Assembly (NCBI GenBank): GCA_950295325.1
Contig: OX485804.1
Span: forward strand, 62,772,533 to 62,836,532
Length of the DNA stretch: 64,000 nucleotides
Direction: 5' to 3'
Origin: Polytrichum commune
Taxonomy: Eukaryota; Streptophyta; Polytrichopsida; Polytrichales; Polytrichaceae
This document shows, piece after piece, positions 1 to 22,418 of this stretch. The position numbers were made by a program, and so were the translations under genes. The notes below the pieces were generated by a model. That model was not told the DNA's origin, did not search any database, and was given only the letters and a program-made list of their open reading frames with translations. Every line of letters starts with the position of its first letter. The stretch's first letter is position 1.

Positions 1-414
1 TGGCTTTGGATAGTCGAGGATAGGAGGGCGGAGCAGGTGTACGAGCTTGTCCGGAAACTGCAGCCGGAGTATGCAGTCTCCAAGTCTCATTACATCGCCG
101 CACCGGCGGAGGGAACTTACACGACGTTGAGGGACAAGAAGACCAAGTTCATCAACGTCTTGTGTTTGTACTTCGTGTACAAAGCGGAGTTGCTGAAGGT
201 GCCGAACCACCCTATATCCCGGATGGACAAACTCTTCCAAGTTCCAGAAGGGTTGGGTGCCAACAAGTGCCTCTACGACGAGGCTAAATACGCGAACTAT
301 CCTTTAGATGAGCTGCGGATGGAATTTTACGTGAGAATGATGAGGACGCTGACGAGGAGAGGGGATTGCATCTTCAACGTCTTCGGAGGCTCTAAACCTA
401 TCTATGCTGCCATG
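1..414 (+). CDS. ParB/methyltransferase-like protein, 3' part of MTase-like exon (element A)
   Basis: The frame is open from base 1 (WLWIVEDRRAEQVYELV...) and stops being coding at a GTAAGC donor right after an ATG codon at 412-414. It is the homologue of the last third of the element B exon at 16631-17956: WLWIVE matches WLWIVE, LRMEFYVRMM matches LRLEFYVSVL, and FNVFGGSKPIYAAM matches YNVCGGSKFMYVAM. The glycine-rich segment followed in the next exon by GLSIYSYIED resembles motif I and the following acidic motif of beta-class N6-adenine/N4-cytosine DNA methyltransferases (usual form D-P-F-x-G-S-G-T-T). The catalytic part is outside the window, so activity cannot be judged. The 5' end is missing because the window starts inside the exon. 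Splicing to the exon at 679 is in phase 0. Confidence 0.7.
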
Positions 415-441
415 GTAAGCGACTTTCTATAACTCGTGCGC

Positions 442-608
442 AGTTTGGGTCGATCGACCCAAACTAGGCTCTGTGTTGGTTTGGGTCGATCGACCCAAAC
501 TAGGCTCTTTGTTGGTTTGGGTCGATCGACCCAAACTAGTCTCTTTGTTGGTTTGGGTCGATCGACCCAAACTAGGCTCTTTGTTGGTTTGGGTCGATCG
601 ACCCAAAC
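442..608. repeat. Array of five 22-bp palindromes, 36-bp period (element A intron)
   Basis: Five copies of the palindrome with arms GTTTGGGTCG and CGACCCAAAC and central AT start at 443, 479, 515, 551 and 587, exactly 36 bp apart. They are separated by near-identical 14-bp linkers (TAGGCTCTTTGTTG type). The whole array sits inside the predicted intron 415-678 (donor GTAAGC at 415, acceptor TTGTGTAG ending 678). In element B the corresponding intron also carries palindromes, but of the other family. Confidence 0.95.
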
Positions 609-678
609 TACACATTGTACTTGGTCTTGTTTATGTCCCTCGCCTAATTCTAATGTCTATATAACTTGGATTGTGTAG

Positions 679-2163
679 ATGTCGGGGCTGAGTATATACT
701 CCTACATAGAGGATGGCGATCTGCCATTTTACAGGACGCAGAGATCGTTGGCGAAGAAGATGGACATCCTCGATTGGATCCCGGGTAGCTACGTCGACGA
801 GGTTGTTCAGGGGGGCGAAAACCCTCTTGATAGGGTGAGGCGGATCAACCCGGAAGAAATGGCCATGAGGGCCACAACCCAAGAACCCGAACCTCTTGTC
901 GGGTTGCATCTGGGCAATCCGTCCCGCACAGAAGGTGGCGATGTCGAGGAGGAGGAGGAAGAAGAGGAGCACGAGGAGGCGGAGAAGGAAGGCGACGTGG
1001 AGGAAGGGGCAACGGGCTTCACGCAAGAATCCGAAGCCCCTCAACGGAAGAAGGCGATGCGGGCGGCAACCCCACAGAGTAAGCTCGTGCCCGTCCTGAC
1101 GGTGGACGATGCACGGGACATGTACTCCAGGGACGCGACCGCCACGTTCAGGGAGAGGAGGAAGATGAAGGGGAAGAAGCTGTATGGCGACTACTCCGTG
1201 GAGGAGACCATTGCCATAAGCAGCGAGGACGACGATGACATTGAGCTCGCCAAACGGCTAAGATCAGATCCCCGGTCCCCGACAGCGTTCGATGGCATGG
1301 TTAGGGTGAAGCCCGAGGTCCTGACTGTGGAGGAGGCGAACGAGAAGATGAGGAGGGACGAGGAGCAGCGAGTTCGCCTGCAGAAGGCTGCCGCGGAAGA
1401 ACCCTCAATGCGGAACGAGGTAGCAGAGCTAAGGGCTCTCCTGTTGGAGCAGGAACGACAGAGGGCGATGGCCCAACCTCCGTCCCACGCCGAATTGATA
1501 TCACAAGTGATACAAGGAATGTGGGCGCAAGGTTTGGTGGTGGCTCCCTCCAGCTCCTTCCCGCACTTGCCCCCCGGCTTCCCTCCGCAGAGCATCCCTC
1601 AGCAGCCTGTGCCGCAATCGTCTTTCAGCTTCCAGCACTTGATTCGGCCCCACCAAGTTCCGTACGCGCCGGTCCAGCAAGTGGATGACCCCAACATCTG
1701 GCGCGTCTCTGGAGCCTCCTCCCCTTTGGGCCCTCCACCACTTCGGCCCCCGATAGTCATGGCGCCCCCTCACCAATCGGACGACCCCAGGATGTTTGGG
1801 TCGACCGACCCAAACCCACCATCCACTGGAGTGTCCGAAGGGCCCTCTCCAGATGCAGGACAGTTTGGGTCGCCCGACCCAAACCCCGTTGCAGCGCAGT
1901 CCTCCCTTGACCAACATGGGTGTCAACTAGACACGGCCATGCTAGATGTTGAAGGCTTGCAAGGGCCTGGTGATACCTCTACTCCTAACCAAATCGATGA
2001 ACCCATGCATGATGCAAATGCGGAGATTGGTTTAGGACAAGGGCCTGATGCCGATCGTTTGCAGGAGAAGGTTCCTGACGTCGTCGGAGAAGGCGGTGGC
2101 GAGAGAGGCGGGGCAGCGGGGACGGTGGAGGCTTCCACATCGTCGAGACATGACCAGGGCGAG
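679..2163 (+). CDS. Acidic/coiled-coil exon with SUMO-interaction-like motif (element A)
   Basis: The exon begins at ATG 679, directly after an acceptor AG. It ends at a GAG|GTAATA donor at 2163/2164 (a TGA would follow at 2173-2175 if unspliced). It is homologous to element B 18098-19531. In order: the N-terminal GLSIYSYIED end of the methyltransferase-like fold; a Glu-rich tract (about residues 90-110); a hydrophobic/acidic SUMO-interaction-like motif TIAISSEDDDD (about 175-186); the sumoylation-type consensus RVKPEVLTVEEAN (about 209-221); a Glu/Arg/Lys-rich predicted coiled coil (about 222-265); and a Pro/Gln/Ser-rich tail. Two element-specific palindromes are translated in the tail as FGSTDPN and FGSPDPN. 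No function is established. It is probably one exon of a larger fusion protein starting upstream, because the ATG is also a phase-0 join. Confidence 0.65.
1794..1815. repeat. 22-bp palindrome inside coding sequence (element A)
   Basis: GTTTGGGTCG, central AC, CGACCCAAAC. It is perfect in both arms although it lies in the open reading frame of the acidic exon, where it is read as FGSTDPN. Confidence 0.95.
1863..1884. repeat. 22-bp palindrome inside coding sequence (element A)
   Basis: GTTTGGGTCG, central CC, CGACCCAAAC. Both arms are perfect and it is read as FGSPDPN. It lies 69 bp from the previous coding palindrome. Confidence 0.95.
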
Positions 2164-2185
2164 GTAATACACTGAGCCCTCCCCA

Positions 2186-2207
2186 GTTTGGGTCGACCGA
2201 CCCAAAC
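2186..2207. repeat. 22-bp palindrome in intron (element A)
   Basis: GTTTGGGTCG, central AC, CGACCCAAAC. It lies 22 bp into the predicted intron 2164-2659. Element B has a palindrome of its own family at the equivalent place (19559-19580). The rest of the intron (2208-2659) holds C-rich runs and no other clear feature. Confidence 0.9.
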
Positions 2208-2659
2208 TTGCTGGGTCATTGTCTTGTTGGCGTGGTCGTGTCCCCCTTGCTAGGAGGAAATGCACACCCCCTGCCCCCCATGCTCTACACTTGCTCCCCC
2301 TCCCCCCAACGTGCCCCCCCGCGATCCCCTTCGTCTCACCTGCACTCGACTATGCTCGACCTTGGCGGCGCGCAACCAATTTTGTAGATGTAGAATTAGG
2401 ATAGTGTGAATGCCCTCGTTCACCGCGGTCCCCCCCCCCCCCCCCAATGAAATTGTACATAGAGATTTGTAAAAATAAAATTATTATTTTTGGCGCCCAT
2501 ATGTTTGCATCCGTGTCCCAATGTATGTTGTTCCCCTTGTATGTTTTTGTTGCCACCAATGGTCCAATTCTTCTTGTGTTTGCACAAAATTTCCGTTCTG
2601 CTTGAGATGGACATAGCATAACATAGTCCTCGTCCGCCTTCTCTCGCTCGTCGCCACAG

Positions 2660-3472
2660 GGTTCGGAGCATAGCGTCGCAGCTCCCCACCGATCCTCTCC
2701 GAGGAGTGTGGAGGACAGCGCGGTGGTCCCCCCGATTTTGCCCTCGCCACCTTCGCCTCCCAAGACCCGGTTCCTGGTGCTAGACCTCAACGGGGTCCTT
2801 GTCCAGTGCGTGCATTGTCCGAGGGTCCCCACGGTGCCTTTCTGCAAGCCCGAGGACGCCAACTACGATGGTCCCCCCGCGTACATCAAAAGCAAGCTAG
2901 TGTACCTCCGCCCGTGGCTTCGGCGCTTCCTGCAGGTCGCCCTATCCAAATGGTGGGTGATCGTGTGGAGCTCCATGAAGTCCGAGAACACCCAGGCCGT
3001 CGTGGAGTTCATCTTCAAGGGATTCCAACCCCCGTGCTTGGTCCTAGGACAGGACTCTTGTAGAACGTTATACACCCCCGAGGGCAGGGTTGTGAAAAAG
3101 CCCAACAACCCCGCCGTAAACCAATTTCTTAAGGTCTTGAAGCCAGTCGTATGGGACCAGCGTCCGACCATGGTCGGCTGTCCCTACGACGTTCGCCCCA
3201 CCCGTGACAACACGTTGATGGTGGACGACAGCGCTTCCAAAAACATTTTGAACCCGACCTCGAACTTCATAGTTTGCCCCACGTGGACGGTCGACAAGGT
3301 CCGAGACCGCTTTTTGTTAGACCTACTTAAGTACATTCAAACGCTCGTGGGGAGCGGACTACCCGTGCCCCGGTTCCTTAGTTGTAATCCGATAGGCGAA
3401 AGATACATGGATCCGAAGGACTATATGTACAGAGAGTTGTACGCTCACGCGAAATATAATAAACTCATTTGA
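2660..3472 (+). CDS. HAD/FCP1 (NIF)-like phosphatase-fold exon, DxN type (element A)
   Basis: The frame opens at a CGCCACAG acceptor (ends 2659) and ends in a TGA at 3470-3472 after the C-terminus KYNKLI, conserved in element B. The motif order is that of plant NIF/FCP1-like HAD proteins: FLVLDLNGVLV (motif I, about residue 37), IVWSSMKSENT (motif II region, W-S-S), and TLMVDDSASKNILNP (motif III/IV DD). Motif I is D-L-N, not the D-x-D needed for classical aspartate-based phosphatase chemistry. The same D-L-N occurs in element B, and a DxN form is known in a plant HAD subgroup (recalled, not searched). It may therefore be a binding module rather than an active enzyme. No in-frame ATG fits the conserved start, so it is probably spliced in phase 0 to the exon ending at 2163. 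Confidence 0.75.
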   Translation, partial: GSEHSVAAPHRSSPRSVEDSAVVPPILPSPPSPPKTRFLVLDLNGVLVQCVHCPRVPTVPFCKPEDANYDGPPAYIKSKLVYLRPWLRRFLQVALSKWWVIVWSSMKSENTQAVVEFIFKGFQPPCLVLGQDSCRTLYTPEGRVVKKPNNPAVNQFLKVLKPVVWDQRPTMVGCPYDVRPTRDNTLMVDDSASKNILNPTSNFIVCPTWTVDKVRDRFLLDLLKYIQTLVGSGLPVPRFLSCNPIGERYMDPKDYMYRELYAHAKYNKLI

Positions 3473-3591
3473 GATACTACATGGTGTGCCATTGTGTGTG
3501 ATATATTATGCCTCAATTGTATATCGATTTTCACATGCTCCCCCCTCCCCCCCTCCCCTTGGGTTTTGTTTTGTTTCCTTTTTTGCGCCAG

Positions 3592-4391
3592 CGTTTGGAG
3601 CCCTCGATTGAGATCGTCAGCGAATCAAACTTGGGGAGCTTCTTCTACGAGACCGTCTACGATGCCGCGTCCACCATCGACTACTCCAAGGAGCCTATCG
3701 ACGCCGGCGTCGTCGATAGCCCCCCACCCAAGCAAATCTTCCGGCCATCTCCGTCCCCGTCGCCGCTCAAGGGCATAAATCGCAAATGCGTCCGGACGTC
3801 CCCGTCTCGGCCCGGCGGCAGTAGTACACCTCAACGGCGGCTGCGGATGGACGCTCGGCCTACGAAGAGTGGCACCCTTCCTATTCCTTTGCGGGACGCA
3901 TTGCCCCTCCTCGCCGACTCCGACGGGAACGCCCCCGGTGACAAGGTGAACCCCCCCCCCCCCAAACATGGTTAACCGCGCATTACAATCATCCGGCACT
4001 TAAAAAATGAACGTGTGACACGTTTGGGTCTTCCTCCCTAAACTAACACGTGTGTTCTTGCATTGACGCGTTGCAGGTTGCTCCCACCCGTAAACCTATG
4101 CGGGCTAGTGCGTCCGTCGAGTTGGAGCGTTTCTACTCCATGACCAGAAATGCAAGACAGTCCACTTCATCGTATTCGAATTCTTCATCGTATAATTCGG
4201 GCGGCCGACGGAATCCAAAATGTGTTTTTGATGGCGGTCACCCCAAGAATGGCTATAGTCGCGGGGCGGAGATTTTCAGGAATGTTGAAGCAATGCGAGC
4301 AAAAGAAGCCGCAGCAAAAGAAAAAGAGGCAAAAGAAAAAGAGGCAAAAGAAAAAAAAAGCAAAAGAAAAAGAGGTAGTCTCCGAGGCTAG
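3592..4391 (+). CDS. Ser/Pro-rich basic protein, two exons (element A)
   Basis: Predicted exons are 3592-3945 (acceptor TTTTGCGCCAG, donor AAG|GTGAAC) and 4077-4391 (acceptor GCGTTGCAG, stop TAG), all in phase 0. Element B has the same pair at 21029-21553 and 21706-22026. Conserved blocks are VYDAASTIDYS...IDAGVVDSPPP, a PSPSPSPLK tract, QRRLRMD, SSYNSG and NGYSRGAEIFR, followed by a Lys/Glu-rich tail with repeated AKEKE. This looks like a disordered, basic and possibly nuclear protein. I do not recognise a family. An ATG at 3508 would give a start in A but has no counterpart in B, so the first exon may be elsewhere, or the unit may be an alternative 3' end of the upstream gene. Intron 3946-4076 contains a degraded palindrome at about 4022-4044. 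Confidence 0.6.
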
Positions 4392-4544
4392 ATAGGCCAT
4401 AGTAGGCGTAGGGTTGTGGGCCATAGGCAAGAACATTTTGGGTCGCACTATCCAATGGATGTGTGGTGTTAGCATGCTATGCATTTTACATGCCACACTT
4501 TGTATGTTTTTTTTGCAATAATATAAGTGTCACATGATTTCCCC

Positions 4545-4772
4545 TTCCATATGGTCTAAGGTTTGGATTGCCCTACCTAAACCATCACAAATATGAGTTT
4601 GGAATATTTTGTATGTTATATTATATTGGTTCACATATTTCCCCTTCAATATGATCTATGGTTTGGATTGCCCTACCTAAACCATATTCATACAAGTTTT
4701 TGTGCGATAATATGAATGTTTTAAGATTTCCCCTTCAACTTGGCCTAAGGTTTGGATTGCCCACCCTAAACA
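4545..4772. repeat. Subterminal repeats near right end of element A
   Basis: Three units about 90-95 bp apart each contain TTTCCCCTTC(C/A)A followed by GGTTTGGATTGCCC..CCTAAAC (near 4560, 4652 and 4749). Each core is an imperfect inverted repeat, GTTTGG...CC(T)AAAC, that recalls the outer arms of element A's palindrome. Clustered subterminal repeats next to a TIR commonly bind transposase in CACTA and hAT elements; that role here is inferred. The rest of 4392-4892 shows nothing else. Confidence 0.6.
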
Positions 4773-4892
4773 ATCCCAAATATGAGTTATTAATGGGGAT
4801 CTTGTTCTAAACACCCGCTTCAAAGTGTTCGCATCTTACAACTTTCTCCAATATGTGTTCCATTTATCCTTGTTCTTATTTTTGTGAATGTC

Positions 4893-4933
4893 TCAAAATG
4901 CCCAAAAAGTCTCAATTTAACGAATATAGTGTT
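4893..4933. mobile_element. Right terminal inverted repeat of element A
   Basis: Read on the minus strand from 4933 it is AACACTATATTCGTTAA, then ATTGAGACTTTTTGG. It shares the first 17 bases with the left TIR of element B (6368). Confidence 0.85.
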
Positions 4934-6367
4934 ACATGCTCATTGTGGGTACTTCCACTTCCACCTCCACAGATCAGTCTGACCATTGGATTAAGGAGTT
5001 GAAGAACTTGTTCATTTCGTGGATTTGAGTAAGGAAGAGGGCCCATGAAAAAATTGCAATCACAGTTCATATGCTCTTAAGATCTTCCGTCAAAGTGCAA
5101 AGTGCATGATTTGTGAAGCCATCAAGTAAGGGGACCAATTTTGAAGGTCACATGTGATTAGAATGTCTCATATATGTGCCTATTCATGTGCCACCGTGTG
5201 GAAAAGAACATTCTACCACAATCAAACCACATATTTTGCATTTGAATTTTGACTTGACCAGATTGTAGAATGAAATTGGCCTTTAAAACTTGGATGAAAT
5301 TTTTGAGTTGAAATGTCTATTTTTGTCGTTTGCAAAATTATAGGAAAAAGATTCCACCACATAATAAATACAATTTTCTACCACATAGAATTTTCACAAG
5401 GTTTACCATGTAACACATCTTTTCATGTTTCTTGATATCAATGATAAATAAGGGGATCAGAAGTACCCACTCAAGTCATTTTGGTTTTCTACCATATTTG
5501 AGTGCCACCGAAAGGATGGAACTGATTGGCTAGAACATTGTAGTGAGGACTCAATGAACTATCCATTGAGTAAAAGAGGGCCAGGGCTAATCAAAAAAAT
5601 ATTGCTTGCCCCGTCCCACTACAAAAAATAATTGCCCATGCATTCATCAAGGCCATTTTTTCCATAATACCATATTGAGTGCACCTCATTTTCCAATCCC
5701 AAAATCCAACATTTATGTTCACTTCCACTTAGTAAATGAGAAAATAATTGGGATATCATTACCAAAGTCACAATGAGAGTTTGACACGAAGACTTAACAA
5801 ATAGTGACTCTATCAAATGAGATTTGTAAATAAAATTGGATATCTTTCTCAAAGCAGCTAATCAAAGGTTGTTATAGAACTCCAAATCTTTCCATAAGTT
5901 CAAGAAATTGTTTAGTACACTGAGGATTTTCCGAAGAATAGGTCGAGCTTTGTGTTTATCGATACTGAACCTAAAGTTTGATCATTTGAATAGACCTTTT
6001 ATGTTGTCAATCTCCACCTTGTAATACAACAATATGAAAGTCAATAATACTCTCAATGGATTGAACTGGATACCAATACACTGATTCAAATCTACCTCTC
6101 AAGTTACCACCAAATTATTGCATCTACTCATGTGAGGCTTGGCATGTATGCCTATTTTAACCTTAATACAAGTCCGTGTAAGGCAATCAAATATTGAGTA
6201 ATTTGATTAGGTCCAAGTAGCCACAAATAGCCTCCAGAGTCTAGGCTTTGGGATTTTGGCCTTGACCCTCCATAACATAGATTGGTTTATTTAAATGGGG
6301 CTAGTTTGGGCCTAGTTTGGTCATTTATTTTAAATGGATGCCTAGAATTTCAATCTTGGCTAGTCAT
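4934..6367. repeat. Duplicated host block Y, copy 1
   Basis: Non-coding AT-rich DNA collinear and nearly identical by eye with 55864-57292; its first and last parts also match 43011-43340 and 44640-45419. It is bounded exactly by the right end of element A and the left end of element B, so both elements inserted about 1.4 kb apart in the same duplicated block. No convincing gene is visible. Confidence 0.85.
6364..6367. other. Target-site duplication TCAT, left of element B
   Basis: TCAT also follows the right TIR at 22419-22422. The paralogous unoccupied site at 57289-57292 has a single TCAT in the context TTGGCTAGTCATGTGTGG. Confidence 0.8.
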
Positions 6368-6396
6368 AACACTATATTCGTTAATCGGAGACTTTT
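6368..6396. mobile_element. Left terminal inverted repeat of element B
   Basis: AACACTATATTCG, then TTAATC, then GGAGACTTTT. It pairs with 22390-22418. Confidence 0.9.
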
Positions 6397-6423
6397 GAAA
6401 GTCTCAAAATAAAATATGCCCAT

Positions 6424-6672
6424 AGTTTGGGATGCCAATATTGTGGGCATATGGAATGTTGGGAACATCAAGAACATGACAATTTAAAATTTTGCACGTA
6501 AAGAATATTCCTAATACTAAAAATAGAAAATTGCAATTATAATGAAAACGTGAACTCCATGTGGAAAATAACAAGCGAATCTAAAAAACAAATGGTTTAT
6601 GTCATTATAGAGTTTGGGGTGCGCATCCCATAAGTAAGGTTCTTATGGTTTTGGATGGCACATCCCAAACGT
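6424..6672. repeat. Left subterminal motifs of element B
   Basis: Three related motifs of the type GTTTGGGATG / CATCCCAAAC occur: at about 6424-6436, at 6612-6632 (a near-palindrome TGGGGTGCGCATCCCA), and at 6649-6670 (TTTTGGATG..CATCCCAAAC). They differ from the internal TTTACGAACG family. By position they could be transposase-binding subterminal repeats; that is inference. Confidence 0.5.
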
Positions 6673-6763
6673 ATACCACAATTGAGTGTGACAAGTCTAT
6701 TAAAAACCAAGACTACTAAACACTAATGTTTTTTTCCGCCGTTAACTTTCACCTATGTTATGT

Positions 6764-9700
6764 TTACCCATCTCCATCTTCCGCTTCATATCCATTCTCG
6801 GCGTCATTTTCCGCAGCTGCAATACGTGCCAAGTTGTCTTTGGCAAAATCTATATGTTTTTGGGAGATGGTCATTGTTTCTGTGTTGGAACCTTTGCGCG
6901 GCTTCCAAGCACAAAGTATAGTATCCGTGTTTATCCAAACCGGTGTGTACGCTGAGTCCACTGTCCACTTAAAATTCTTTTTGGTGTCCCAACCTAAATA
7001 AGTGCGGAGCACGTTGTGGTCTTTAGTGCTTGGACGATAATATTCCACCTCAATTTGACGAAAGTTGGGGCTAGTTCGAACAAAATTGGGTGAAGACAAT
7101 GCTTTTACCAACCAAATTGGCTTGGGATGCTCCTCATCCCCTGCTCGTACGAGGACCAAATACCCTTCATGGCAATCAACACCTACACGAAACGACGGTG
7201 CCGGTCGATTACGGGCAGGGCCAACGTAATGCTCGTCCATTGCGAACTCTTCATGAACGTCTCCATTGCTGAAAAACATAGTATCGGACTCGACAACCGT
7301 CAAACGACTTTGTGGCCAAAATCCTTGTGTCAAAGTCGTACGGGTGTCGCCACCAAGTGTCATCAAGGCTGAGCGAATGCGATCCCAATACGCGATCAAC
7401 GGTTCATGGGTATCTCTAACACGTCTTGTGATGTCCTCCTCGCACAACTCTTTCCAATATTCAATGAATCCGGATATGCCTTTGATGATTTCCGGCCCAT
7501 TCCTCATGGGTTCGGGTTTGCAAGGCTTTGGTTCCCCATCCGGGACCAAACATTTCCCATCATTGTCTTGACGCCATACGAGTATACCATCATCCGGGCC
7601 CCAATTAGGTGATGTGCACAAAAGCTTGAATTGCATGGCCGGGAGACCATCGTCCCTCATATAAAATCGGAATTGCTGTGCTTTGGTATGCCCCACCAAA
7701 CGGTCCCCTCCCTTCAACATGTATGGCTTGATGAAGGCCTTGAAATCTGGTACTTCCTCAATCAAGTGCGGAATTACTGGCATATGGTCCAAATCCATAT
7801 ACGATTTCATAAGAAGAGGTATGGTTGGAAAATCTTCTTCATGCAACTTCATGCTCCACCGTCCGAATGATGCATCAATGTCGTCGTGTGTATGTCCCAC
7901 CATCAAGAAAGACACAAACACCTCCTTGAAGATTCCTTTCGCCACGAACAATGACCAAAAACAAAATACGTATCGACATTTGTTGTCCTTCGTACAATTA
8001 TCAAGTTGAACGTGGAGAGTTGGAGGCAATGGTTTTGCACAAATGGGCTCTCCGGGTGGTTTTGGCAATGACGACATACAAACCTCCTTCCCCGCAAGCA
8101 CTGCCTCATAAAGGGATGTGGTTCCACAACCATCAAAAAGTGCACGGGAAGAATGTACCGGTGGCTTCTCAAGATCGCGCAACAGTTTTGCAAATGAACC
8201 CACCATGTGGTTAGCATCCCCAGGGTAAAAATCCAAACCATAATGGGCAAACTTTACGTCCCCATGGCCGTGGGCAATCATACCTGGAAAAAACAAACGA
8301 TGCGTGACCAAAATAATCAAATAACCACTAAACGGATGTATGGAGTTGGACATTTGCCAAACACACCCAAGAAAATTGGATAGACTTTAAACACGTAGTT
8401 GTGATTTCATACAAACCTGTGACAGCTACGGGCAACTTGAAGAGACCATCCGTGGCCTTTATTTTGCGTGCATAACAAGGGCATGCGGTTTTGGCGTGGT
8501 CCATTTTATCATGGATGACTGTTAGAACCTCTGTGGGCCTCATTATGGATAGAGCACGATTCTTATAGTAATCTTGACGGTGTGCCTCTTGATTGTTGAC
8601 ATGTTCAATATATTTTTTCTGGTGTCTGGAATGAGATTCAGTGCCTATGGGGTGGGCGTCTCGAAGACCTTTGTATTTTTCACACGTCGTACATCTAGCG
8701 AACTTGTCCCCGGGTCTTTTCAGAATGTATTCCGCAAACTGCTGGTTTTTAATCACACTCAACTTGGACAAAGAAATGGGCCCACATCCCACTATGCGAC
8801 CCACTTCATTGATGTCCGTTAAGATGTTCTTCCATTTTGTACCCGTGGGCAACACCATTTGAACAACCTTCTCCCCTGACGACAATGTCCTCGTCTTGTG
8901 GGGCATTGCATCGGCCAATGGCACTATGATGGTGGATAGTGTCGCGGACGCTTGCAGTGTAGCTTCCCTAGGTTTCTTTGTGCCCGAGTTGCCATGAAAT
9001 CGAGAGCGGCGACCCAACGATGAATACTTTCGAAACCTATAAAAGTCAACCTTGGAGACGGCATGGATGGTATACCACGCTGTACAACACACATCAACAT
9101 TCTCAAGTGTCACCACCTTATGCCCATGGGTATCAAGGTGCAAATTTCTGTGGACCTCGAGTTTCTTAGCCGACCTCATACGAAAATCCGCAAGCCACAT
9201 CTCTTGACGCAGAGATCTAATTTTCTCCCGCGGGAAAATTGGCAACATTTCCTCGCGCAACAATCCTTGCCGGACACTAGACGGATAGATTCGTCCCCCA
9301 AAAGCCGATCCCGTCGACGCTCCTTATCTCCGCGAGGCACACGGTTTGAATCATATCTATGGAGGCCTTTGCGAGGACGTGTTGTGGCCAACAAAGCTAA
9401 TTGTGTTTGCTTATGCCGCCGCTCATGATCCCACAAACTCACTTCCTCATGTAGAACTTGACGAAGCGGCCATCGACGCAAGGAAAATCTCCATGTCACC
9501 GGGACCTCTACCGGAAGCAAAGAGTTCAAGATGCACACGCCAACATTATCGAGACCTAGGGCATTGGCATCGACACAATCACGGGGATTGGAGTTTCTAC
9601 ATATGCCATCTGCCACCGGGACACCAACCTCGTTGAGTAGAACGACATCAAGGCCAACCCATTGCTCCCTCCCGAAACCGGCACACAACGGAATGTCATC

Positions 9701-11671: not shown

Positions 11672-11703
<32 letters not shown>

Positions 11704-11818: not shown

Positions 11819-11861
<43 letters not shown>

Positions 11862-13440: not shown

Positions 13441-13446
13441 GCGTCC

Positions 13447-13570: not shown

Positions 13571-13684
13571 GCGGCGCACCTACCTCCCCGCGCCCCTTCC
13601 TCTTCTCCTCATTTGTCATTTCGAGGAGAGGAGGAGCGGAGCGCTTAGAGAGCGAAGCTCTTGCTTTTTTTAGTCTTGAAGTTT

Positions 13685-14080: not shown

Positions 14081-14440
14081 TAGGGTTTGTATATAAGCTG
14101 TGAAGGCTTGAGGTCTGCATTAGAGAGTTATCTGAGTGTGCATTTGAAAGGCAATTGAGTGTGCAGTTGTGAGGATTTCTGGGATTTCAGAAAGAGAAGA
14201 AGCAGGGTTTGAAGTGTGCAGCATTTCAATGTAATTTGTTATCCTTTCCAACTCCTCTCACATTCTGAAAATGTTGCTTCTTGAATTCAATTTCTTTTGT
14301 TACATGCAATGTGAATTATCACTCTCTTCTTCATGTTTCATTCTGCATCTCAATCTGCATCTCAATTGCTTTATGATTGAAGATTTGCATCATTCTGACC
14401 AAAATTTTGCAGGCACGGCTGCAAGCAGAGTAGCTAATAA

Positions 14441-15189
14441 GTGAGTTATATACATATACGTATACGTATTCATATTCGTATATATACGAATACATATATG
14501 TACGGACAGGGGATCCCAAAACCATCACATTTACGAACGCTCGTTCGTAAATGGACATACACTGCATACCCACCTCCATTTACGAACGCTCGTTCGTAAA
14601 TGGACATACACTGCATACCGAACCTCCATTTATGAACGTGCGTTCGTAAATACGCACTCCACGTTCTTTGAAATGATCTATATTTACGAACGCACGTTCG
14701 TAAATATATTCAAAATATCACTCAGAAGGAACCTTAACTTTAATATGAACCTCTATGAATATCTAAAGAACAAATATAATTTTGCGAACACCAATAAGAC
14801 AAATCACATGTACTTACGAAAGATAAATCAACCAAATGTCTGAAAAGATAGACCAAATGGACATATTTACGAACGCACGTTCGTAAATGAATCCAAATCT
14901 ATAAAACCAATATCTTTTACAAACGATCGTTCGTAAAAATAACCAAATATATTACAAACACAATCATGACGACTAGTCTTTTTGATCTTCATATCTTTTA
15001 CGAACGCTCGTTCGTAAACTCAATACTAAAAAATTATATGTTCTTGCAACCCCTCATTTACGAACGAACGTTCGTAAATATAATTACATCAATTGCAAAG
15101 ACGCATTAACACTGCGTTGTCTGTGGGATATGCATGTCACTTACGAACGTTCGTTCGTAAAGTCACTAATTGTTTATATTTTGTTGCAG
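14441..15189 (+). other. Predicted 5' leader intron packed with palindromes
   Basis: Donor AATAA|GTGAGT at 14440/14441; acceptor TTTTGTTGCAG ends at 15189, directly before ATG 15190. The intron holds nine palindromes of the element B family, at 14530, 14579, 14629, 14683, 14866, 14916, 14997, 15057 and 15140. A small leader exon 14413-14440 follows a TTTTGCAG acceptor. The first palindromes are 49-54 bp apart. Confidence 0.6.
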
Positions 15190-16485
15190 ATGGCAAGATC
15201 AAGCAGAAGCGCCATTGAGATGTTCGCGGTGAAGGTCGATGGCCTCCCAGAGTCGGTGTTAGACGATAACGGCAACGACAACTATGTCCCTAAGGAAGAC
15301 TTCATGGAGAAGTGGACGGCACTGCCAGAGAAGATCGGGGACGGCCTCTTCTGCATGCGCTTCACATACGAGCTGGAGACAAGACCGGACCAGCCCGAAC
15401 AGTGGGTTCAAATGAAGACGTGGGAGATAGAGTCCATAGAGGCCCAGGGGGAGTATGTAATTCTGGACATGAAGAACAAGAAGGATCATATCAACCTCTT
15501 GTTGCATTTTCAGAAAAATACCTTCTCCTACCAATACGCCACCAATAACGTAGCGGAAGATGCCAAGCACTTCGACCTGGACGGCCTCTTCTCCAAATAT
15601 GCGTTAAGCCCATACTGGACGGCAAGGAAATTGGCCGCCCTTGCATTGAACATCTCCAAATACAACAGTGTGGTCACTGAGGCAAACAAGAAGAAGAAGA
15701 GCCCCAGGAAACCATCCACATCAAGGGCAGGAGGATCTAGAAGTGCACCCAGGCCTGTGCCTTCCGCTAGCAGGGCGACGGAGGGCCCCAGTAGACACTC
15801 CACGCCATCGAAGAGGATAAGGGAGGAGATGGAGAAATCGGGAGTAACGGAGACCGCAGAGGTGACCTCGCCTGTCGTAATGCCCACCCCCTTGAAAAAG
15901 GGTGAGAACCCTGACGCTGTGAAGGCCACGAGGATCCTTTGAGACTTCAACAACTACTCGAAGGATTGCTGGCCCATGGGACGCCACTTCACATTCAACG
16001 TGGACTGCTTCAAGTGCGAGATGTCCCCCAACAAATGGGTGGTTCGCTCTCGCGAAAGCGGTGGTGTGAAGTGGCAGATAAGTAATCTAATGAACAACGT
16101 CAAGTGGGACAGGCAGACCGTCTGCGTGATGCCGAAAGGGCTGACATCCCGTCCGACGGAGAAGGACTGGCCACGGATCCAGAATGGAGAGTTCTGGATC
16201 ATAGACGGCCAACACAGCTTGGAGGCGTCCCAGATAATTCTCAAGGACGACAACTTCCAGCATGAGCTGAAGGAGGACTTTCGCTACTGGAAGGCGTTCT
16301 TGGTGTAGTCGGATGATTGGGACAAGCTGCGGAAGATATCCACCTTCCTCAACTCCGGCAACAAGATCAAGGCCTTTGAGGCGTCGTGGGCAGCCAACAT
16401 AGTGGCTGTAAGGGACGTCTGGGTCGCCCACGGGTGCCCCCCTAAAGAAAGGGAGAACGCGAAGACGCCGTCTCCACAATGGAAG
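15190..16485 (+). pseudogene. ParB-like (DGQHR) exon with two in-frame stops (element B)
   Basis: ATG at 15190 follows an acceptor; the exon ends AAG|GTGAGT at 16485/16486 in phase 0. The frame is the same throughout but is broken by TGA (15940-15942) and TAG (16306-16308). Both could come from single C-to-T changes (CGA and CAG). The N-terminal 150 residues are of unknown type. Then comes a Lys/Ser/Pro-rich linker (about 165-245), then a ParB/sulfiredoxin-like module: an NVDCFKCEMSPNKWVVR strand, VKWQISNLMNNVKWDRQTVCV, and FWIIDGQHSLEASQII (compare the ParB-type G-x-H-R-x-x-A box). Such domains precede DNA methylases in phage and bacterial proteins, which fits the next exon. The copy is probably inactive unless the stops are read through or the assembly is wrong. 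Confidence 0.6.
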
Positions 16486-16490
16486 GTGAG

Positions 16491-16599
16491 TTTACGAACG
16501 AACGTTCGTAAATATCTTTGACATTCAAAATTTCAAGTTCTTTGACATTCAAAATTTCAAGTTCTTTGACATTCAAACTTACGAACGTGCGTTCGTATT
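16491..16599. repeat. Two palindromes in the intron 16486-16630
   Basis: 16491-16512 has perfect arms with centre AA. 16578-16599 has centre TG and altered outer bases. Between them, CTTTGACATTCAAAATTTCAAGTT is tandemly repeated (about 25 bp, 2.5 copies). The acceptor is CTTGCTGCAG, ending 16630. Confidence 0.9.
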
Positions 16600-16630
16600 T
16601 TGTGCGCTACTGATGTCTTTCTTGCTGCAG

Positions 16631-17956
16631 GCATTCTGCGACGCGATGGTGGACAAGTTCTCCTCCATCGACATGAAGTCTACAACAACCAAGTTTGTCC
16701 TGGAGCTCAAGGGTGAGCTCCGCCTCATCTGTTGCAACAGGGACACTTGGGAGTTGTGGACACAATTTTTTGATGCGCACAGCTCGGGCGATCTGGTCAA
16801 CCCCGACACCGAGGAGAAGTACAGCGCGGAGAAGACCGGGGAGGCCCCTCCACTACTGAGGGAGTTCTTCAGGTCCCTTCAAGGGTTAACAGAGTCCGAG
16901 TTGCAGAGGTGCGCGGTGCATCTTCTTGGGAACACAGTGGGAAGAACCATCCCATACCCGAAGATATTTTTGAAGAGGCCAAGACACAAGCCCGGCACGT
17001 ATTCCATCAAGGAATGGTGCGAACACCGCAAGCTGAAGACTGCTGCAATGAGGGAGTTGAGCGCCCTAATACCAGAGTACGCACTCATCCTAGCCGACGG
17101 GGACATTAATTGGGCCAGCTGGAAGATGTTCAAGGTCGACTACAACATCTCCGGACCCTCAATGCGTTGTCTTGTCAAGGAGCACGCCTCCATTTTGAAG
17201 CAGAAGGGGAACAAGAGGACAAAGAAAACCGAGACGGATCCCCAGGAGGTGGAGCAATACAGAAGCTTTTTGGCGCGGAAGAGGTTGGCCACATTCAAAG
17301 GAGTGGCCAGATTTTGTCTGGTGACAACCGGAGTGGAGAGGGTGACATTCTCCAAGTGGGACCGGACCATGAGCAGGGCCGAGGTGAGGGAGGATCGACG
17401 AGGGTGCCCATTTGCCCTGATCGATTTCAGGGGGATCCCCGGTGCGTCGAGGCAGGGGGGGAAGGACATACCTTTCTACGACCCCTTCATGGCCAAGTTC
17501 AAGGAGTACAAGTCTCCGGACATGAGGGAGCCTCACGTTTGGCTGTGGATAGTGGAGCAGGAAAAACTCTCTGCTGTAGTCGACCTGTACGAGAAGATGA
17601 TCAAATTCGAGTACAGCATCTTCCACAGCACTTACGTGCCCGCCAAGACGGAAGGGATCGTGGCCATCAACGAGGCCAGGGGAAACAAACAGGTGGGGGC
17701 GGTCAGCCTCGTCTTCTTGACGTACAACGCGCTTCGGAATGGGCAAGCCCCTGTCAAGGCGAACACTACGTTCAAGAAGATCTACAGCATCCCCCATCCC
17801 CCTCCCAAGGATCTGCTGCAGGAGACCTTGTACACTGTCTTCCCGGCGATGGAACTCAGGTTGGAGTTCTACGTCTCCGTTTTGCAGAGCGTGGCAATAA
17901 GCGGAGAGACCGTGTACAACGTTTGTGGCGGCAGCAAGTTCATGTACGTTGCGATG
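16631..17956 (+). CDS. Degenerate beta-class DNA aminomethyltransferase-like exon (element B)
   Basis: An open phase-0 exon of 442 codons from AFCDAMVDKF to YVAM, donor GTAAGC. The layout resembles beta-class N6-A/N4-C methyltransferases, in which the catalytic motif precedes the SAM motif: CPFALIDFRG (about residue 256) stands where D-P-P-Y is expected, WLWIVEQEKLSAVVDLYEKM follows, and SGETVYNVCGGSKFMYVAM, continuing in the next exon with GLVVNSFIEA, matches the G-D-x-V-x-D-P-F-x-G-S-G region and the acidic residue after it. D-P-P-Y is absent and the SAM loop is altered, so I expect a non-catalytic or changed fold. The family call is by motif order only and needs a profile search. The following intron 17957-18097 corresponds to the element A intron 415-678. 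Confidence 0.55.
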
Positions 17957-17975
17957 GTAAGCTCTCCAACTAATA

Positions 17976-18071
17976 TTTACGAACGCTCGTTCGTAAAGTT
18001 CACCTCAACTTGTCTTGGAGTTTGATGACATTGTTTCTCGTCGTTGATGTTTACGAACGCACGTTCGTATA
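17976..18071. repeat. Two palindromes in the intron 17957-18097
   Basis: 17976-17997 (centre CT) and 18050-18071 (centre CA). This is the same intron that carries the five-palindrome array in element A. Confidence 0.9.
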
Positions 18072-18097
18072 TTCTAACGTATTTGCTTGAATTTCAG

Positions 18098-19531
18098 ATG
18101 CTGGGGCTGGTCGTCAACAGCTTCATTGAAGCCATCGACGAGGAGGACTTCCACGTGCACAGGGCGAAGGCCTCCACGATGGACCTGGAGGACATGTCCC
18201 TCCCGAGGATGGACATCAACATGCCCGTCGACGAAGGCATGCCCGCCATGGAGACGGACGACGACGAGTCCGCGCCCTCCTACAACGTCGAGGCGATCCT
18301 CCGATCTTTGGACGTCACTCCTCTCCGCATTTTGGCGCCGTCGGGAAATCCATCCGACGTGCAAGGGACTCCGGGTGGATACACGGGGTCGTCGGCGGGG
18401 ACAACCCAAGATGTCCTCCCCGCGAGAACGTCTGGAGCGGAGGCATTCGGCACTCCCGGGGGATGCTCGACATCCGTGTCGCCCAGGCCAGTCGTGGTTC
18501 CCAAGATGGAGAACCTCGACCTTCTGGACCAACGGTCCCGACCGACGTTGGACCAGTACCGCAACACGAGGCGGAGGATGAAGAAGACCCCCTACGTGGA
18601 GCTGCCTCCGGGGGAAATCATCGAGGTCTCCGATGAGGACGAGGGCGACATGGAGATCATGGTCGAGCTGGGGGTAGACTTTGACAAAAACAAGAGGGTC
18701 AAAGAGGAGGCGTTGTCCGTCGCCGAGCTTAACGCCAAGCTCGAGCAAAAGATGAAGGAGGACATGGCAAAGGCGGCAGAGGAGAATGCCAAGAAAATGT
18801 TCGCAATTCAGGAGGAGCTGAGGCAGTCAAACGAGAAGACGGACGCCATCCTCGCCATGCTCCAGTGTATGCAGAGCTTCTCGGCGCCCCCCCAGCCGGC
18901 CTACCCCTTCCCTGGAGGATACCCCTCCCAATCCCCTCCACCGGGCATGTTCACCGGAGGGCCTTCCCGCCAGCAGGCGCCCCACCCGACGCCTGTTGGC
19001 ACTCCTCCGCCACCAGAGGTTCCCTCGACCACCTCCCACGATGCTGTGGCGGCGGCCATCCAGGAGGACGAGGATTTACGAACGCGCGCTCGTGAATCTT
19101 CAGGTCCTCCAGTCCTCAACCCTCCCCCTTCAAGGGTAGGACTGCCCTCATACACCGATGCGTCGTCTTTCACCGTCGTCCCCAGGGTAGTAGACAGACA
19201 TGGCGATGACTCTGCGCGACACACTGACATGGTCATTGTGGAGGACACGCAGGGGAGCCCCAATGACGCACCAGGGGTGCATGGGATGGACGTGGAAGAA
19301 ACCCATGCGGCGTGGATGGAGGATGTCAGGATGGACGCGCTCGACCTGGGCGCCGAGGAAGAAGACGCGCTGCGCATCCAAGCGACACAGGCGTCTCAAC
19401 CGGAGCGTGAGGCAGAGGCCATGGAGACAGAGGCGGATGCAGCTGTGGAGGTTACGAACGCGCGTTCGTTAATCGTTGAGGAGGGACCTGCTGCTCGGTC
19501 CAGCGCCGCTACCCCTCCCCCCGATGACGAG
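18098..19531 (+). CDS. Acidic/coiled-coil exon with SUMO-interaction-like motif (element B)
   Basis: Starts with ATG after TTTCAG and ends GAG|GTAACT at 19531/19532 (a TGA follows at 19544-19546 if unspliced). It matches element A 679-2163. Features: GLVVNSFIEA (end of the MTase-like fold), GEIIEVSDEDEGD (about residues 169-181, a strong SUMO-interaction-type sequence), RVKEEALSVAELN (about 200-212, with a sumoylation-type VKEE), a Lys/Glu/Ala-rich predicted coiled coil (about 213-255), then a Pro-rich segment and an acidic tail. Two palindromes of the element B family are translated, at 19075-19096 (LRTRARES) and 19451-19472 (VTNARSLI). The role is unknown. Conservation of the SIM, the VKxE site and the coiled coil between otherwise diverged copies suggests constraint. 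Confidence 0.65.
19075..19096. repeat. Palindrome inside coding sequence (element B)
   Basis: TTTACGAACG, centre CG, CGCTCGTGAA. It is slightly degenerate on the right arm and lies in the open frame of the acidic exon. Confidence 0.85.
19451..19472. repeat. Palindrome inside coding sequence (element B)
   Basis: GTTACGAACG, centre CG, CGTTCGTTAA. It is in frame in the acidic tail, at the position corresponding to the C-terminal coding palindromes of element A. Confidence 0.85.
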
Positions 19532-20149
19532 GTAACTCTCCTCTGAGAATACCATTTTTTTATGAACGCGCGTTCGTAACCTCTCTAACATCGCGATGTT
19601 TTTCTCTTCATCGACATCCAGTGGCCTTGCAAGAGCCCTCTTCAGCGGTCCCCCTTAGGGCCGAACAATTTTGTAGGACACGGCATCATTTTGCCTTAGG
19701 AAAATGTGATAGACTATCACGTGAGAAATGTAAATATTCAACGGATTAATATATGAGCCTATGTTATCTGCATCGCGTTGCTTCAAATTCTCTGCCCTCG
19801 ACCCCTTCTCGTATGTTGTATATGTTGATGAGATTATGTTGATTCTTGCATACCCACCTCATTCGCGAACGCTCGTTCGTGAAAGGCTGCGACCCACTGT
19901 CCACCTCATTCGCGAACGACTGCTCGTAAATGTACGTGTAGCCGCGCTCACGAACGAGCGCTCGTAAATGATGCGCACCGCCCCCGCAGCCTTCATTCAC
20001 GAACGCTCGTTTGCAAGTGTGCCCTTGAGCACATTTTCCTTGCACTCTCCTCACTTCCCCGTCTTTCCCCATAATGCACCGTCTTCATTTTCTACGCAAA
20101 GTTTCATTATTGGATCATAGAATTAAACTAGTTGAGTTGTTCATCACAG
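19532..20149 (+). other. Predicted intron before the HAD-like exon, with degenerate palindromes
   Basis: Donor GAG|GTAACT, acceptor TTCATCACAG (ends 20149), phase 0 on both sides. Palindrome copies are at 19559-19580, 19862-19883 and, more decayed, near 19909-19932, 19946-19969 and 19996-20017. A possible small exon after CATCGACATCCAG (19621 onward, WPCKSPLQRS) cannot be excluded. Confidence 0.5.
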
Positions 20150-20917
20150 GACCCCCCAGAGATAGGTCGCAACCCCTCGACCAGTGGACCTCCCACCCGG
20201 CACAAACCTTTCACCGTTTTTGACCTCAACGGGGTGTTGTGTCACACCCAACACATCCCAAGGGTCCCCACGCGTCCCTTCCGTCACCCCGACGAAAGGG
20301 ACTACGACGGCGAGCTCGACACCCTCATTAACCGCAAGGCTGTCCGCGCCCGTCCCGGCTTGCGTGACTTCCTTCGCGAGGTGGTCGAGTTCGCTCACGT
20401 CATTGTGTGGAGCTCCATGGTCATGGAGAACACCGAGCCCATCGTGCACTTCTTGTTCCGCGATCTCCCGAGCCCTTGCCTCGTCCTCGGCCAAGAGGAC
20501 TGCGACGAGCTGCTCGACGAGAAAGGTCAACCGGTGCCCAAGTTTGGCGGTCGGGGCGGAGGACAACAGTTCGTCAAGGTCCTCCGCTCGAGACTCTGGC
20601 GAGGCGTCCCCCGTCTGCAAGGGACGCCGCACGGGTGGTGGCCGACTCCAGAGAACACCGTCCTCATCGACGACAGCCCCACCAAGAGCGTCTTGAACCC
20701 CCCGGGCAACGTCATCTTCCCGGACACTTGGACCGGTGATAGGCAAGACACATTTTTGGTCGATAGGCTAGCCCCCTACCTTAGAAGGCTCGTGCTCCAC
20801 GCCGGTAGTATACCATTTTTTGTTAGGTCCAACCCCTTCGGCAATGCGGCGCTAAGCCCCCGCGATAATGTATTCAAGAGCATCATGAGGCTCGCCAAAT
20901 TCAATAAATTGATTTGA
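20150..20917 (+). CDS. HAD/FCP1 (NIF)-like phosphatase-fold exon, DxN type (element B)
   Basis: Opens at acceptor TCATCACAG with DPPEIGRNPST and ends KFNKLI-TGA, the same C-terminus as element A (2660-3472). Motif I is FTVFDLNGVLCH (about residue 25), motif II region is VIVWSSMVMENTE, and the acidic motif is TVLIDDSPTKSVLNPPGN, followed by FPDTWTG. The second Asp of the classical D-x-D is Asn in both elements. By recalled family knowledge it belongs to the plant HAD/NIF-like group, so it may be a captured host gene. It is predicted to be joined in phase 0 to the acidic exon, giving a ParB-MTase-acidic-HAD fusion. Against fusion: a separate promoter in the 618-bp intron is possible. Confidence 0.75.
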   Translation, partial: DPPEIGRNPSTSGPPTRHKPFTVFDLNGVLCHTQHIPRVPTRPFRHPDERDYDGELDTLINRKAVRARPGLRDFLREVVEFAHVIVWSSMVMENTEPIVHFLFRDLPSPCLVLGQEDCDELLDEKGQPVPKFGGRGGGQQFVKVLRSRLWRGVPRLQGTPHGWWPTPENTVLIDDSPTKSVLNPPGNVIFPDTWTGDRQDTFLVDRLAPYLRRLVLHAGSIPFFVRSNPFGNAALSPRDNVFKSIMRLAKFNKLI

Positions 20918-21028
20918 AATGCCTCCATGTCTTTGCTTGTATCATGTGGTTCACATTTACTAATGCTTGCTTCGTTTTTGGATGTCTTTTGTTGTTGTGA
21001 TTGTTGTTGTTGTTGTTTTTGCCCATAG

Positions 21029-22026
21029 TCTGCCCCCATATGCGACGCCCCTGTGGTCGACGGCCCTTCCCGTCCCCTCTCGCCCCCTGCCTCCCCTTCC
21101 CGCGACGTCACGGACTTCCAAATGCCATCCCTCTACCAGTTCTCGGCGGTGGATGCGGCCTCGGCCGTGGATTACTCCCGCGACATCGGCATCGACGACG
21201 GCGTCGTCAACAGCCCGCCCCCCGCACTTGTCGCCCGCGCCTACGCCCCGTCGCCCTCCCCCCTCTCCAAGGAGAAACGGACGCTCGTTCGTTTGGGGCA
21301 CCTCTCGCCCTCTAAGGACGACGCCGTCGCTCGTCGCGGGCCGAGCCGGCGTCTCCGCATGGAAGGCCCCCGTTGCCACACCTCCCCCGCCGACTCCGTT
21401 CCTCCCTGCGCAACGTCCTCCGCCATCGTGAGCCCCCCACGCCTCGACTCCCCCCTGCCACTCACCAATACAATAGTTCCATCGGCTCCGGATGCTCCCG
21501 TCGACGCCCCCCTCGTTCCCACCGTTCCCCGCATGGACGTCCCCAAAGCCAAGGTGCCCTCCTCAACCCTAAACCCCTTTCCCGCTTTTGCTTCCCTTGT
21601 CTTCCGTTTGCGTGCCGTTCTCTTTACGAGCGTCCATCCCAAACCGCCCTCATTATTTTCCCCACTCCATTCCTATTCTTATCTTCCTATGACGTTGTTT
21701 CGCAGGTGGTTACCCGCTCGCTTGGTGCCCGGCCCTCCTCCACGTCCTCCTTGGATAGGCACGCCCTCAAGGCCGCATCTTCCGAGTCCGATCGTTGTCT
21801 GGCCCTCCGGAGAAACGCAAGACGTTCCCTTTCGCAAACACCCTCGCATTCTACTTATAATACCACCTCTTACAATTCGGGAGCGCGTCCTGAAACATGC
21901 AAGAACGACACATATTCCTGTCCAGGCAACACGCAAGGATACAGTCGTGGGCCTGAGATTTTTAGAGCCATGGAGGCCGCCAAAAAAAAGGGCTTAGCCG
22001 CAAAAAAAAATAGTGGGTCGGACTAG
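21029..22026 (+). CDS. Ser/Pro-rich basic protein, two exons (element B)
   Basis: Exons 21029-21553 (acceptor TTTTTGCCCATAG, donor AAG|GTGCCC) and 21706-22026 (acceptor TTGTTTCGCAG, stop TAG), all in phase 0 as in element A 3592-4391. Conserved with A: VDAASAVDYSRD...IDDGVVNSPPP, PSPSPLSK, RRLRME, SYNSG and GYSRGPEIFRAMEAAKKK. Exon 1 contains a half-decayed palindrome near 21275-21295 read as KRTLVRLG. The protein is Ser/Pro-rich with a short Lys-rich end. There is no recognised domain, and no start codon conserved with A. It could be a separate gene or alternative 3' exons of the preceding one. Confidence 0.55.
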
Positions 22027-22389
22027 TGTGACGTCTAGAAGCGTACTAGTGGGACGGACTCCCTAAATGGGCTTAGGTGTAGAACATATTTAAGTGCTTA
22101 CTTTCTATGCTATTCCAAGTTACTCAAGACATTGATGGTATTTCCATTATAATTGTATTTCAATCCCAATTAATTCATTCAACTTCCATTCATTCTTCGC
22201 ACCTTCCCTTCCATTCATAACGAGTTGTGATTTCATACACAACTATTTTCATGTATGCCTCACATTTTTGTTCACTTCCATGCCTTTATGTATAATAATA
22301 GTAGCATACCATTATACATATGGGATTTTTAGTCGTCATTACTGGTCCAATTTTGAAAGGTGCATCCTTATATAGTCTCATAATCAACA
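22027..22389. other. 3' spacer of element B
   Basis: AT-rich, no gene or clear repeat seen. It separates the last stop codon from the right TIR, as 4392-4892 does in element A. Confidence 0.5.
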
Positions 22390-22418
22390 AAAAGTCTCCA
22401 AATACCGAATATAGTGTT
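22390..22418. mobile_element. Right terminal inverted repeat of element B
   Basis: Read on the minus strand: AACACTATATTCG, then GTATTT, then GGAGACTTTT. TCAT follows at 22419-22422. Confidence 0.9.

Follow-up and report, generated by a model that had tools for sequence, protein, structure and literature searches.

Clade-specific palindromic words and a candidate ParB-like reader in sister transposons of Polytrichum commune

In the available passages on Arabidopsis VANDAL transposons, VANC motifs are described in introns, upstream regions, and tandem arrays, and VANC as more variable than the transposase (PMC5735166, PMC10398659). According to the accessible parts of the first of these reports, the motif of VANC21 spans 9 bases, and DUF1985/DUF287 are the domains of VANC proteins (PMC5735166). 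Excerpts of a report on Ectocarpus describe a ParB-methyltransferase accessory protein of an algal transposon, Sola1-1_Ec32, and cite Iyer 2011 and Petroll 2025 (PMC12477816). VirB appears, in the available part of another source, as a ParB relative with an anti-silencing role against H-NS and with the Box II residues G91, R93, and R94 (PMC10653881). Here we analyze a 64,000-nucleotide stretch of the Polytrichum commune genome (408 Mb), G000:C2:62772533-62836532, hereafter the window. It contains a complete transposon, B, and the right part of a sister transposon, A, each of which carries many copies of its own palindromic word and a gene predicted to encode a ParB-like protein.

We consider it reasonably probable, on comparative grounds, that these palindromes are sites for the ParB-like protein encoded by the element itself, probably with a VANC-like anti-silencing output. 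The sites, their conservation, the clade-specific words, the anatomy of the gene, and the association of words with ParB-like genes are directly visible in the DNA. As in VANC/VANDAL, so far as the excerpts describe that system, the element-encoded factor is more variable than the transposase, short non-coding motifs include tandem repeats, and motif sets differ between related families. The combination that typifies VANC, clade-specific and often tandem non-coding motifs together with a fast-evolving element protein, is found here. Unlike VANC motifs, the sites are 20-22-bp dyads and the protein has a predicted ParB-like domain; anti-silencing enters by analogy only, and DUF1985/DUF287 were not among the Pfam families listed for members of exon 1 or exon 2 of the gene. 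Like Sola1-1_Ec32 as excerpted, these are large transposons with an accessory gene containing a ParB-like domain, and exon 2 may, by motif likeness only, be a methyltransferase-like part. Unlike that report in its accessible text, in which the string "palindrom" does not occur, we observe words, clade specificity, and three sister families. The predicted fold and palindromic sites are shared with ParB/parS, Noc, KorB, and VirB, the last being an anti-silencing precedent, whereas bacterial ParB/parS differs from the present case of eukaryotic transposons with many dispersed sites and no Box II arginines seen. VANC and ParB/parS had been named in an earlier note on this DNA as the nearest analogies, and both were good leads. 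ParB-methyltransferase accessory proteins of transposons are already in print (PMC12477816, as excerpted). For the DNA side, clade-specific palindromes, no report of such words in transposons was recognised in the titles, abstracts, and passages searched in the open-licence literature.

The A word, GTTTGGGTCG-NN-CGACCCAAAC, occurs in 8 exact copies in the window (443-2207), and the B word, TTTACGAACG-NN-CGTTCGTAAA, in 30 copies with up to four mismatches, 16 of them exact (10215-20017). Both words are 22 bp long, have arms of 10 bp on either side of a 2-nt centre, and share the core CG-NN-CG. The earlier note had described this form, with a free central dinucleotide, and had counted about 8 and about 30 copies, in agreement with these numbers. 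A third sister element, C, has the word TTTACGGACG, which differs from the B word at one base per arm. Six further A-like matches with 4-5 mismatches lie at 4022-6670 in the window. One of these, at 6649 with five mismatches, is inside B and is the only cross-match of either word in the other element at up to five mismatches; the earlier note had found neither family in the other element. Counted over entire elements, there are 43 sites in A (up to three mismatches), 30 in B, and 24 in C. Exact copies number 9,231 for A, 2,909 for B, and 1,147 for C genome-wide. The reversed words, the sole genome-wide control, have none, and by our arithmetic 408 Mb of random bases would be expected to contain some 4e-4 exact matches to a word of this kind. 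Some of the sites adjoin the transposase gene and others precede the ParB-like gene; the rest fall in the introns of the latter and about the open reading frame ORF3.

Element B spans 6368-22418, with terminal inverted repeats (TIRs) AACACTATATTCG/CGAATATAGTGTT and the target duplication TCAT on both flanks; an empty site matching its insertion lies near 57290, inside duplicated DNA of the window. Element A has the same TIRs and the duplication ACAT. It begins at -12025, upstream of the window in L063, and ends at 4933. The earlier reading had covered only the right part of A. Boundaries and genes read for both elements bear out the earlier view of sister transposons with common TIRs and a common gene order: from the left, a DUF7869-type transposase gene on the minus strand, two palindrome arrays in succession, the ParB-like gene with two or more exons, ORF3, a gene for a NIF-like phosphatase, and the short ORF5. 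C extends across the adjoining loci L061, L017, and L062 with the gene order of A and B and the right TIR present, in a reading that stopped short of its left TIR. The features of A and B in the window are as follows.

1-4933, plus strand: right part of element A (whole element -12025 to 4933, G000:C2:62760507-62777465)
1-414, plus strand: end of exon 2 of the A ParB-like gene, whose exon 1 and earlier part of exon 2 lie in L001
443-608: A palindrome array of 5 exact copies repeating every 36 bp, within the intron that follows exon 2 of the ParB-like gene
679-2175, plus strand: ORF3 of A, a probable further exon of the ParB-like gene
1794-2207: three more exact A palindromes (1794, 1863, 2186), in and just after the ORF3 frame
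2627-3472, plus strand: NIF-like phosphatase gene of A (Pfam PF03031, E 3.9e-14)
4921-4933: right TIR of A, followed by the target duplication ACAT at 4934-4937
6368-22418, plus strand: complete element B, TIRs at 6368-6380 and 22406-22418, TCAT on both sides
6764-10069, minus strand: B transposase gene of DUF7869 type in several pieces, with relatives in A and C
10215-11289: B palindrome array, 10 sites, beside the 5' end of the transposase gene
14530-15161: B palindrome array, 9 sites, upstream of the ParB-like gene
15190-16485, plus strand: exon 1 of the B ParB-like gene, N-terminal part PH-like with a low score, C-terminal part ParB/sulfiredoxin-like and bearing the DGQHS motif, with in-frame stops at 15940 and 16306
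16491-16599: two B palindromes in intron 1, the first beginning 5 nt into the intron
16631-17956, plus strand: exon 2 of the B ParB-like gene, N-terminal half modelled as helical, C-terminal half methyltransferase-like by motif only
17976-18071: two B palindromes in intron 2
18098-19546, plus strand: ORF3 of B, a probable third exon, after TTTCAG
19075-20017: seven palindromes at 2-4 mismatches from the B word, inside ORF3 and ahead of the phosphatase gene
20132-20917, plus strand: NIF-like phosphatase gene of B (Pfam PF03031, E 8.3e-16)

The relation between word and clade was followed in 56 sequences, comprising 54 sampled loci and the two window copies, with words sought as exact 10-2-10 dyads. 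Forty loci represent 35 motif variants, picked by eye among 100 listed of 523 places, plus 5 repeats, a one-per-variant choice that makes the sample diverse, not random; the 14 further loci came from 92 listed ORF2 matches. The own-clade word is present in 55 of the 56 copies, and one has no word. In a FastTree phylogeny of exon 1 with 42 sequences, midpoint-rooted and read with branch supports left out of account, A, B, and C fall in separate clades. By nearest word (up to four mismatches), 23 of these sequences are A, 16 B, and 2 C, and one (L009) has none. The comparison of relatives' palindromes with the protein tree that the earlier note had proposed gave the clade word in 41 of 42 tree sequences; so did all 14 further loci, each with the C word and assigned to C by 73-77% identity, not by tree. 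Exact sites are lacking in L009, L014, and L039, and in none of the 42 sequences do exact sites of different words mix within a locus. Single sites closer to another word were seen once in L017, once in L034, and at the intron site of L045.

Among the pairs examined, protein identity of the exons falls as low as 76% within clades without a change of word, and is 35-54% between clades. Transposase pieces are 85, 87, and 62% identical between B and C, against 43 and 53% for the ParB-like exons; between A and B the values are 65, 67, and 57% against 36 and 36%. The transposase is thus better conserved in both comparisons, by the smallest margin in its third piece, and the faster-diverging partner in the co-divergence proposed earlier is the gene with the predicted ParB/sulfiredoxin-like domain. 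That proposal gains from three sister clades with three words, and less from tree-following, which carries little weight when a word is passed on along with its gene. Stronger evidence comes from dozens of sites per element with one word, and from a corresponding intron site whose word differs by clade. A word of its own and a fast-changing ParB-like gene in each family suggest a family-specific recognition code. Only a handful of word changes were sampled, and all of the evidence is comparative sequence.

For a profile of the sites, we took 307 A, 216 B, and 147 C sites within four mismatches of the word (213, 81, and 82 exact). Arm positions mostly have 1.7-2.0 bits, the outermost and some others falling to 1.5 in A, 0.9 in B, and 1.3 in C, values inflated by selection of the sites for likeness to the word. 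The centre has 0.4-0.6 bits in A and B and 1.2-1.4 in C, where it is mostly CG. Flanks are mostly below 0.5 bits, except for two C positions at 1.2-1.4. The contrast of arms with centre and flanks, and the share of exact sites, are safer evidence than the arm values. The intron 1 site, near the 5' splice site, has arms with a mean pairwise identity of 0.95-0.99, compared with 0.52-0.74 for its centre and 0.40-0.59 for the 30 nt that follow. These statistics come from 44 of the 56 sequences (17 A, 15 B, 12 C), selected by likeness to the word as in the profile; the other 12 were missed by the splice-like pattern or have no site in the first 45 nt of the intron. The site carries the clade-specific word and begins 8-9 nt into the intron in A, 5 nt in B (14 of 15), and 17-18 nt in C. 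Among 293 imperfect sites, 204 are altered in one arm only (A 72 of 94, B 91 of 134, C 41 of 65), and 23 changes keep the pairing (A 3, B 7, C 13). From this comparison, the word rather than the pairing appears to be what is kept, least clearly in C; a hairpin function is disfavoured by the one-arm changes at most imperfect sites, again least clearly for C.

ORF1 and ORF2 appear to be exon 1 and exon 2 of a single gene. The former terminates in KW(E/K/Q), followed by GTGAGT, GTGAGC, GTAAGT, or GTATGT, exon 2 usually starts after CAG, and GT follows 26 of 27 listed exon 2 ends, counts that are biased because the search patterns partly required such sequences. The window copy of B is interrupted by its two in-frame stops; open-frame copies exist elsewhere. 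Residues 265-393 of exon 1 have VIA matches to ParB, Noc, KorB, PadC, and sulfiredoxin structures. The first 19 VIA rows are all ParB-type (ParB, Noc, KorB, PadC) or sulfiredoxin, and the best, 6sdk, has Z 9.1 and a root-mean-square deviation of 2.4 over 95 residues with a weak exon 1 model. The motif DGQHS or DGQHT is found in A, B, and C, and D339, G340, Q341, and H342 are invariant in the exon 1 alignment. A ParB fold of exon 1 is likely, as judged from modelled structures. The N-terminal part of exon 1 matches PTB, FERM, and PH folds at Z about 6, a resemblance that may reflect a common arrangement only. The N-terminal half of exon 2 is modelled, with low confidence, as helical. Methyltransferase identity of exon 2 is unsupported by fold, the Foldseek and VIA rows being weak, PII-like or mixed, with Z of at most 6.0; families outside the VIA listing are not thereby excluded. 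No viral relatives were found on scanning viral contigs with the exon 1 and exon 2 alignment patterns.

A words that lack an A gene nearby led to a different element at G000:C1:2149800-2164300 (L064, L059, L065). From a weak SWIM match (E 0.076) and by eye, its minus-strand frames are taken for a MULE-like transposase. A plus-strand gene contains DGNHR and DLTCSTGAS motifs, which are ParB-like and methyltransferase-like, respectively. This element holds two A arrays with 18 sites (up to four mismatches), so that the A word, which had been supposed private to its own element, is not private to A genome-wide, and the earlier inference that each element would recognise itself alone is not supported. 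The MULE-like element also has its own 22-bp word, CCCTGTGCGT-NN-ACGCACAGGG, with 461 exact copies genome-wide; on C1, a DGNHR-type gene stands within 8 kb of 10 of the 11 clusters listed for it, against 0.5% for a random point (9 kb). We sampled ten relatives of the MULE-like gene and inspected 1 kb upstream of each. The 97% relative has 10 A sites there. The four relatives at 80, 72, 70, and 65% identity are without A sites, and in three of them close variants of the element's own word are present. A sites are also missing from the five relatives at 41-43%; three contain an exact further word, GTGTCTCGG-NN-CCGAGACAC (997 exact copies genome-wide), a fourth has copies that differ from it at 1-2 positions, and L071, the last of the five, has neither. 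The four relatives with this word or near copies, 42-43% identical, are L070, L072, L073, and L074. A link between word and gene clade thus appears to be repeated in another transposase background. The array spacers of the MULE-like element differ from those of the compared A copy, and the distribution suggests recent uptake of A arrays by the MULE-like type. Homology between its ParB-like gene and that of A/B/C was considered and rejected, hhalign giving 21 columns at DGQH/DGNH with probability 1.2 and a second comparison being empty.

Thirteen copies of the GTGTCTCGG word with a TA centre, several at a spacing of about 138 bp, lie at G000:C1:468608-471946. Just beyond the right end of C, at about 3586-4866 of L062, there is an array of palindromes resembling GTGTTTCGG-NN-CCGAAACAC at a spacing of about 250 bp; that word has 52 exact copies genome-wide.

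We infer from these patterns that the palindromes would serve as dyad-symmetric sites for a homodimeric protein encoded in the element. The most likely candidate is the protein of the spliced ParB-like gene, in which the predicted ParB/sulfiredoxin-like domain lies at the end of exon 1. Once bound, it would coat the element's control regions or serve to mark them. The likeliest output would be family-specific shielding from host silencing, compare VANC/VANDAL and VirB against H-NS, and an alternative output of the same binding would be coordinated control of the element's own genes. Joint divergence of protein and sites would give each clade its own word, and other transposons may sometimes bear the sites of another family, perhaps to exploit its protein. 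A wider proposal we hold more tentatively, as its merits fall a little short of balancing the doubts: clades of at least two unrelated transposase types would each own a 20-22-bp dyad word as a password, on which a co-encoded ParB-like reader would load and shield kin from silencing. Words would shift in concert (as between B and C) or be taken up by others (as A in the MULE-like type), making this a eukaryotic self-recognition code resembling ParB/parS.

Several observations weigh against the binding of these words by a ParB-like protein of the element. The exon 1 model is poor (mean predicted local distance difference test score, pLDDT, 53.9), and Z 9.1 is little above the 7-8 that VIA typically gives for models without a clear match. 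ParB is absent among the 50 Foldseek matches listed for that model, and searches of PDB, Pfam, and NCBIfam with the ParB-like gene gave no significant match. In Pfam, exon 1 members match YEATS best (E 0.018, 4 of 19); among PHROGs, a family without known function comes first (E 0.0073, 8 of 19), with ParB behind it (E 0.019, 7 of 19). By a correspondence drawn by eye, no counterpart of the Box II arginine pair of CTP-binding ParB is seen at DGQHS, making a canonical CTP switch doubtful. No DNA-binding domain was identified confidently among what are only weak helix-turn-helix matches. C is relatively rich in pair-keeping changes, with 13 in its 65 imperfect sites, and co-inheritance of a linked word and gene alone predicts tree-following. 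A sites occur in the MULE-like type, whose ParB-like gene shows no detectable kinship to that of A. Finally, a gene of the matching type lies within 8 kb for at least 2 of the 6 listed A clusters, 4 of the 7 for B, 6 of the 7 for C, and 2 of the 6 for the GTGTCTCGG word, low counts given a gene scan that demands the exact motif and gene listings that are mostly partial, as are those of the clusters. The B cluster at 2485595 adjoins an A-type gene and the GTGTCTCGG-word cluster at 468608 a first-type gene, and both are excluded from the matches. Several word clusters sit in partial elements or have no matching gene among those listed nearby.

The best-surviving alternative, still unlikely, is that the ParB-like protein is a KorB-like regulator that coordinates or limits element genes only, with no anti-silencing. 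The sites beside element genes and in introns, and KorB among the fold matches, fit such an operator role. However, 24-43 sites per element are more than simple operators need, and arrays persist in a derivative, L060 (G000:C1:640400-646600), where no B protein was detected across the 6.2 kb read. L060 carries B palindrome arrays in a stretch resembling a non-coding part of B (window 11268-13700) and is a probable non-autonomous B copy.

Slightly less likely again is that the ParB-like protein includes a working methyltransferase acting on the element's DNA at the palindromes or close by, with N6-adenine or N4-cytosine as the modified base and the mark itself as the output. Self-marking has been proposed for ParB-like plus methyltransferase proteins of algal transposons (PMC12477816, in the available excerpts). 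In the present genes, a GGSK/GGTK motif stands at the end of exon 2, where such enzymes carry a glycine-rich motif, and the MULE-like gene has DLTCSTGAS and a weak DpnA match (E 0.43). Against this, neither exon 2 nor the pieces of the MULE-like gene match a methyltransferase family in Pfam, the catalytic DPPY/DPPW motif is not seen, and the fold of exon 2 is uninformative.

That a host factor reads the palindromes and is exploited by the elements is improbable. The A word in two unrelated transposon types would be explained, but five words pair with five element clades, spacers differ between the arrays of the two A-bearing types, and 9 of 10 MULE-like gene relatives, those below 97% identity, lack an A site in the 1 kb upstream.

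More doubtful still is a role for the words as internal transposition sites. In En/Spm, the element-encoded protein TnpA has a repeated binding motif, and an element protein with a repeated motif is also what we see. One array adjoins the transposase gene in A, B, and C. Unlike the En/Spm motif, the sites here are dyads throughout the element that do not track the transposase: others lie in introns and beside other genes, and words differ despite B-C transposase pieces at 85-87% identity and a right TIR common to A, B, and C. Least credible is a neutral or structural origin by tandem duplication, gene conversion, or hairpins without sequence-specific reading, which would suit the many tandem arrays with near-identical spacers but not the greater conservation of arms than of centre and flanks at the corresponding intron site or the single-arm changes in most imperfect sites.

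Other features of the window include large duplications (22553-29625 versus 57341-63625, and 38388-43326 versus 51150-56175) and tandem repeats near 27779-28551 and 61886-62481. The B transposase piece at 6767-8386 (minus strand) matches Pfam PF25273 (DUF7869) with E 1.4e-38 and 132.9 bits against a curated cut-off of 26; we found no mention of DUF7869 in the open-licence literature. The NIF-like phosphatase (PF03031) in both A (2627-3472) and B (20132-20917) is unusual transposon cargo.

If recognition of the words by the ParB-like proteins is real, transposon-encoded ParB-like proteins gain a visible DNA target, and the suggestion made for Ectocarpus, in the excerpts available, that accessory proteins bind their own transposon becomes a directly testable pairing of protein and word (PMC12477816). 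It would also provide an independent case of VANC-like sequence-specific self-recognition, together with an apparent borrowing of one transposon type's code by another. Several sets of sites in one genome would allow concerted change of DNA-binding specificity at dozens of sites to be studied.

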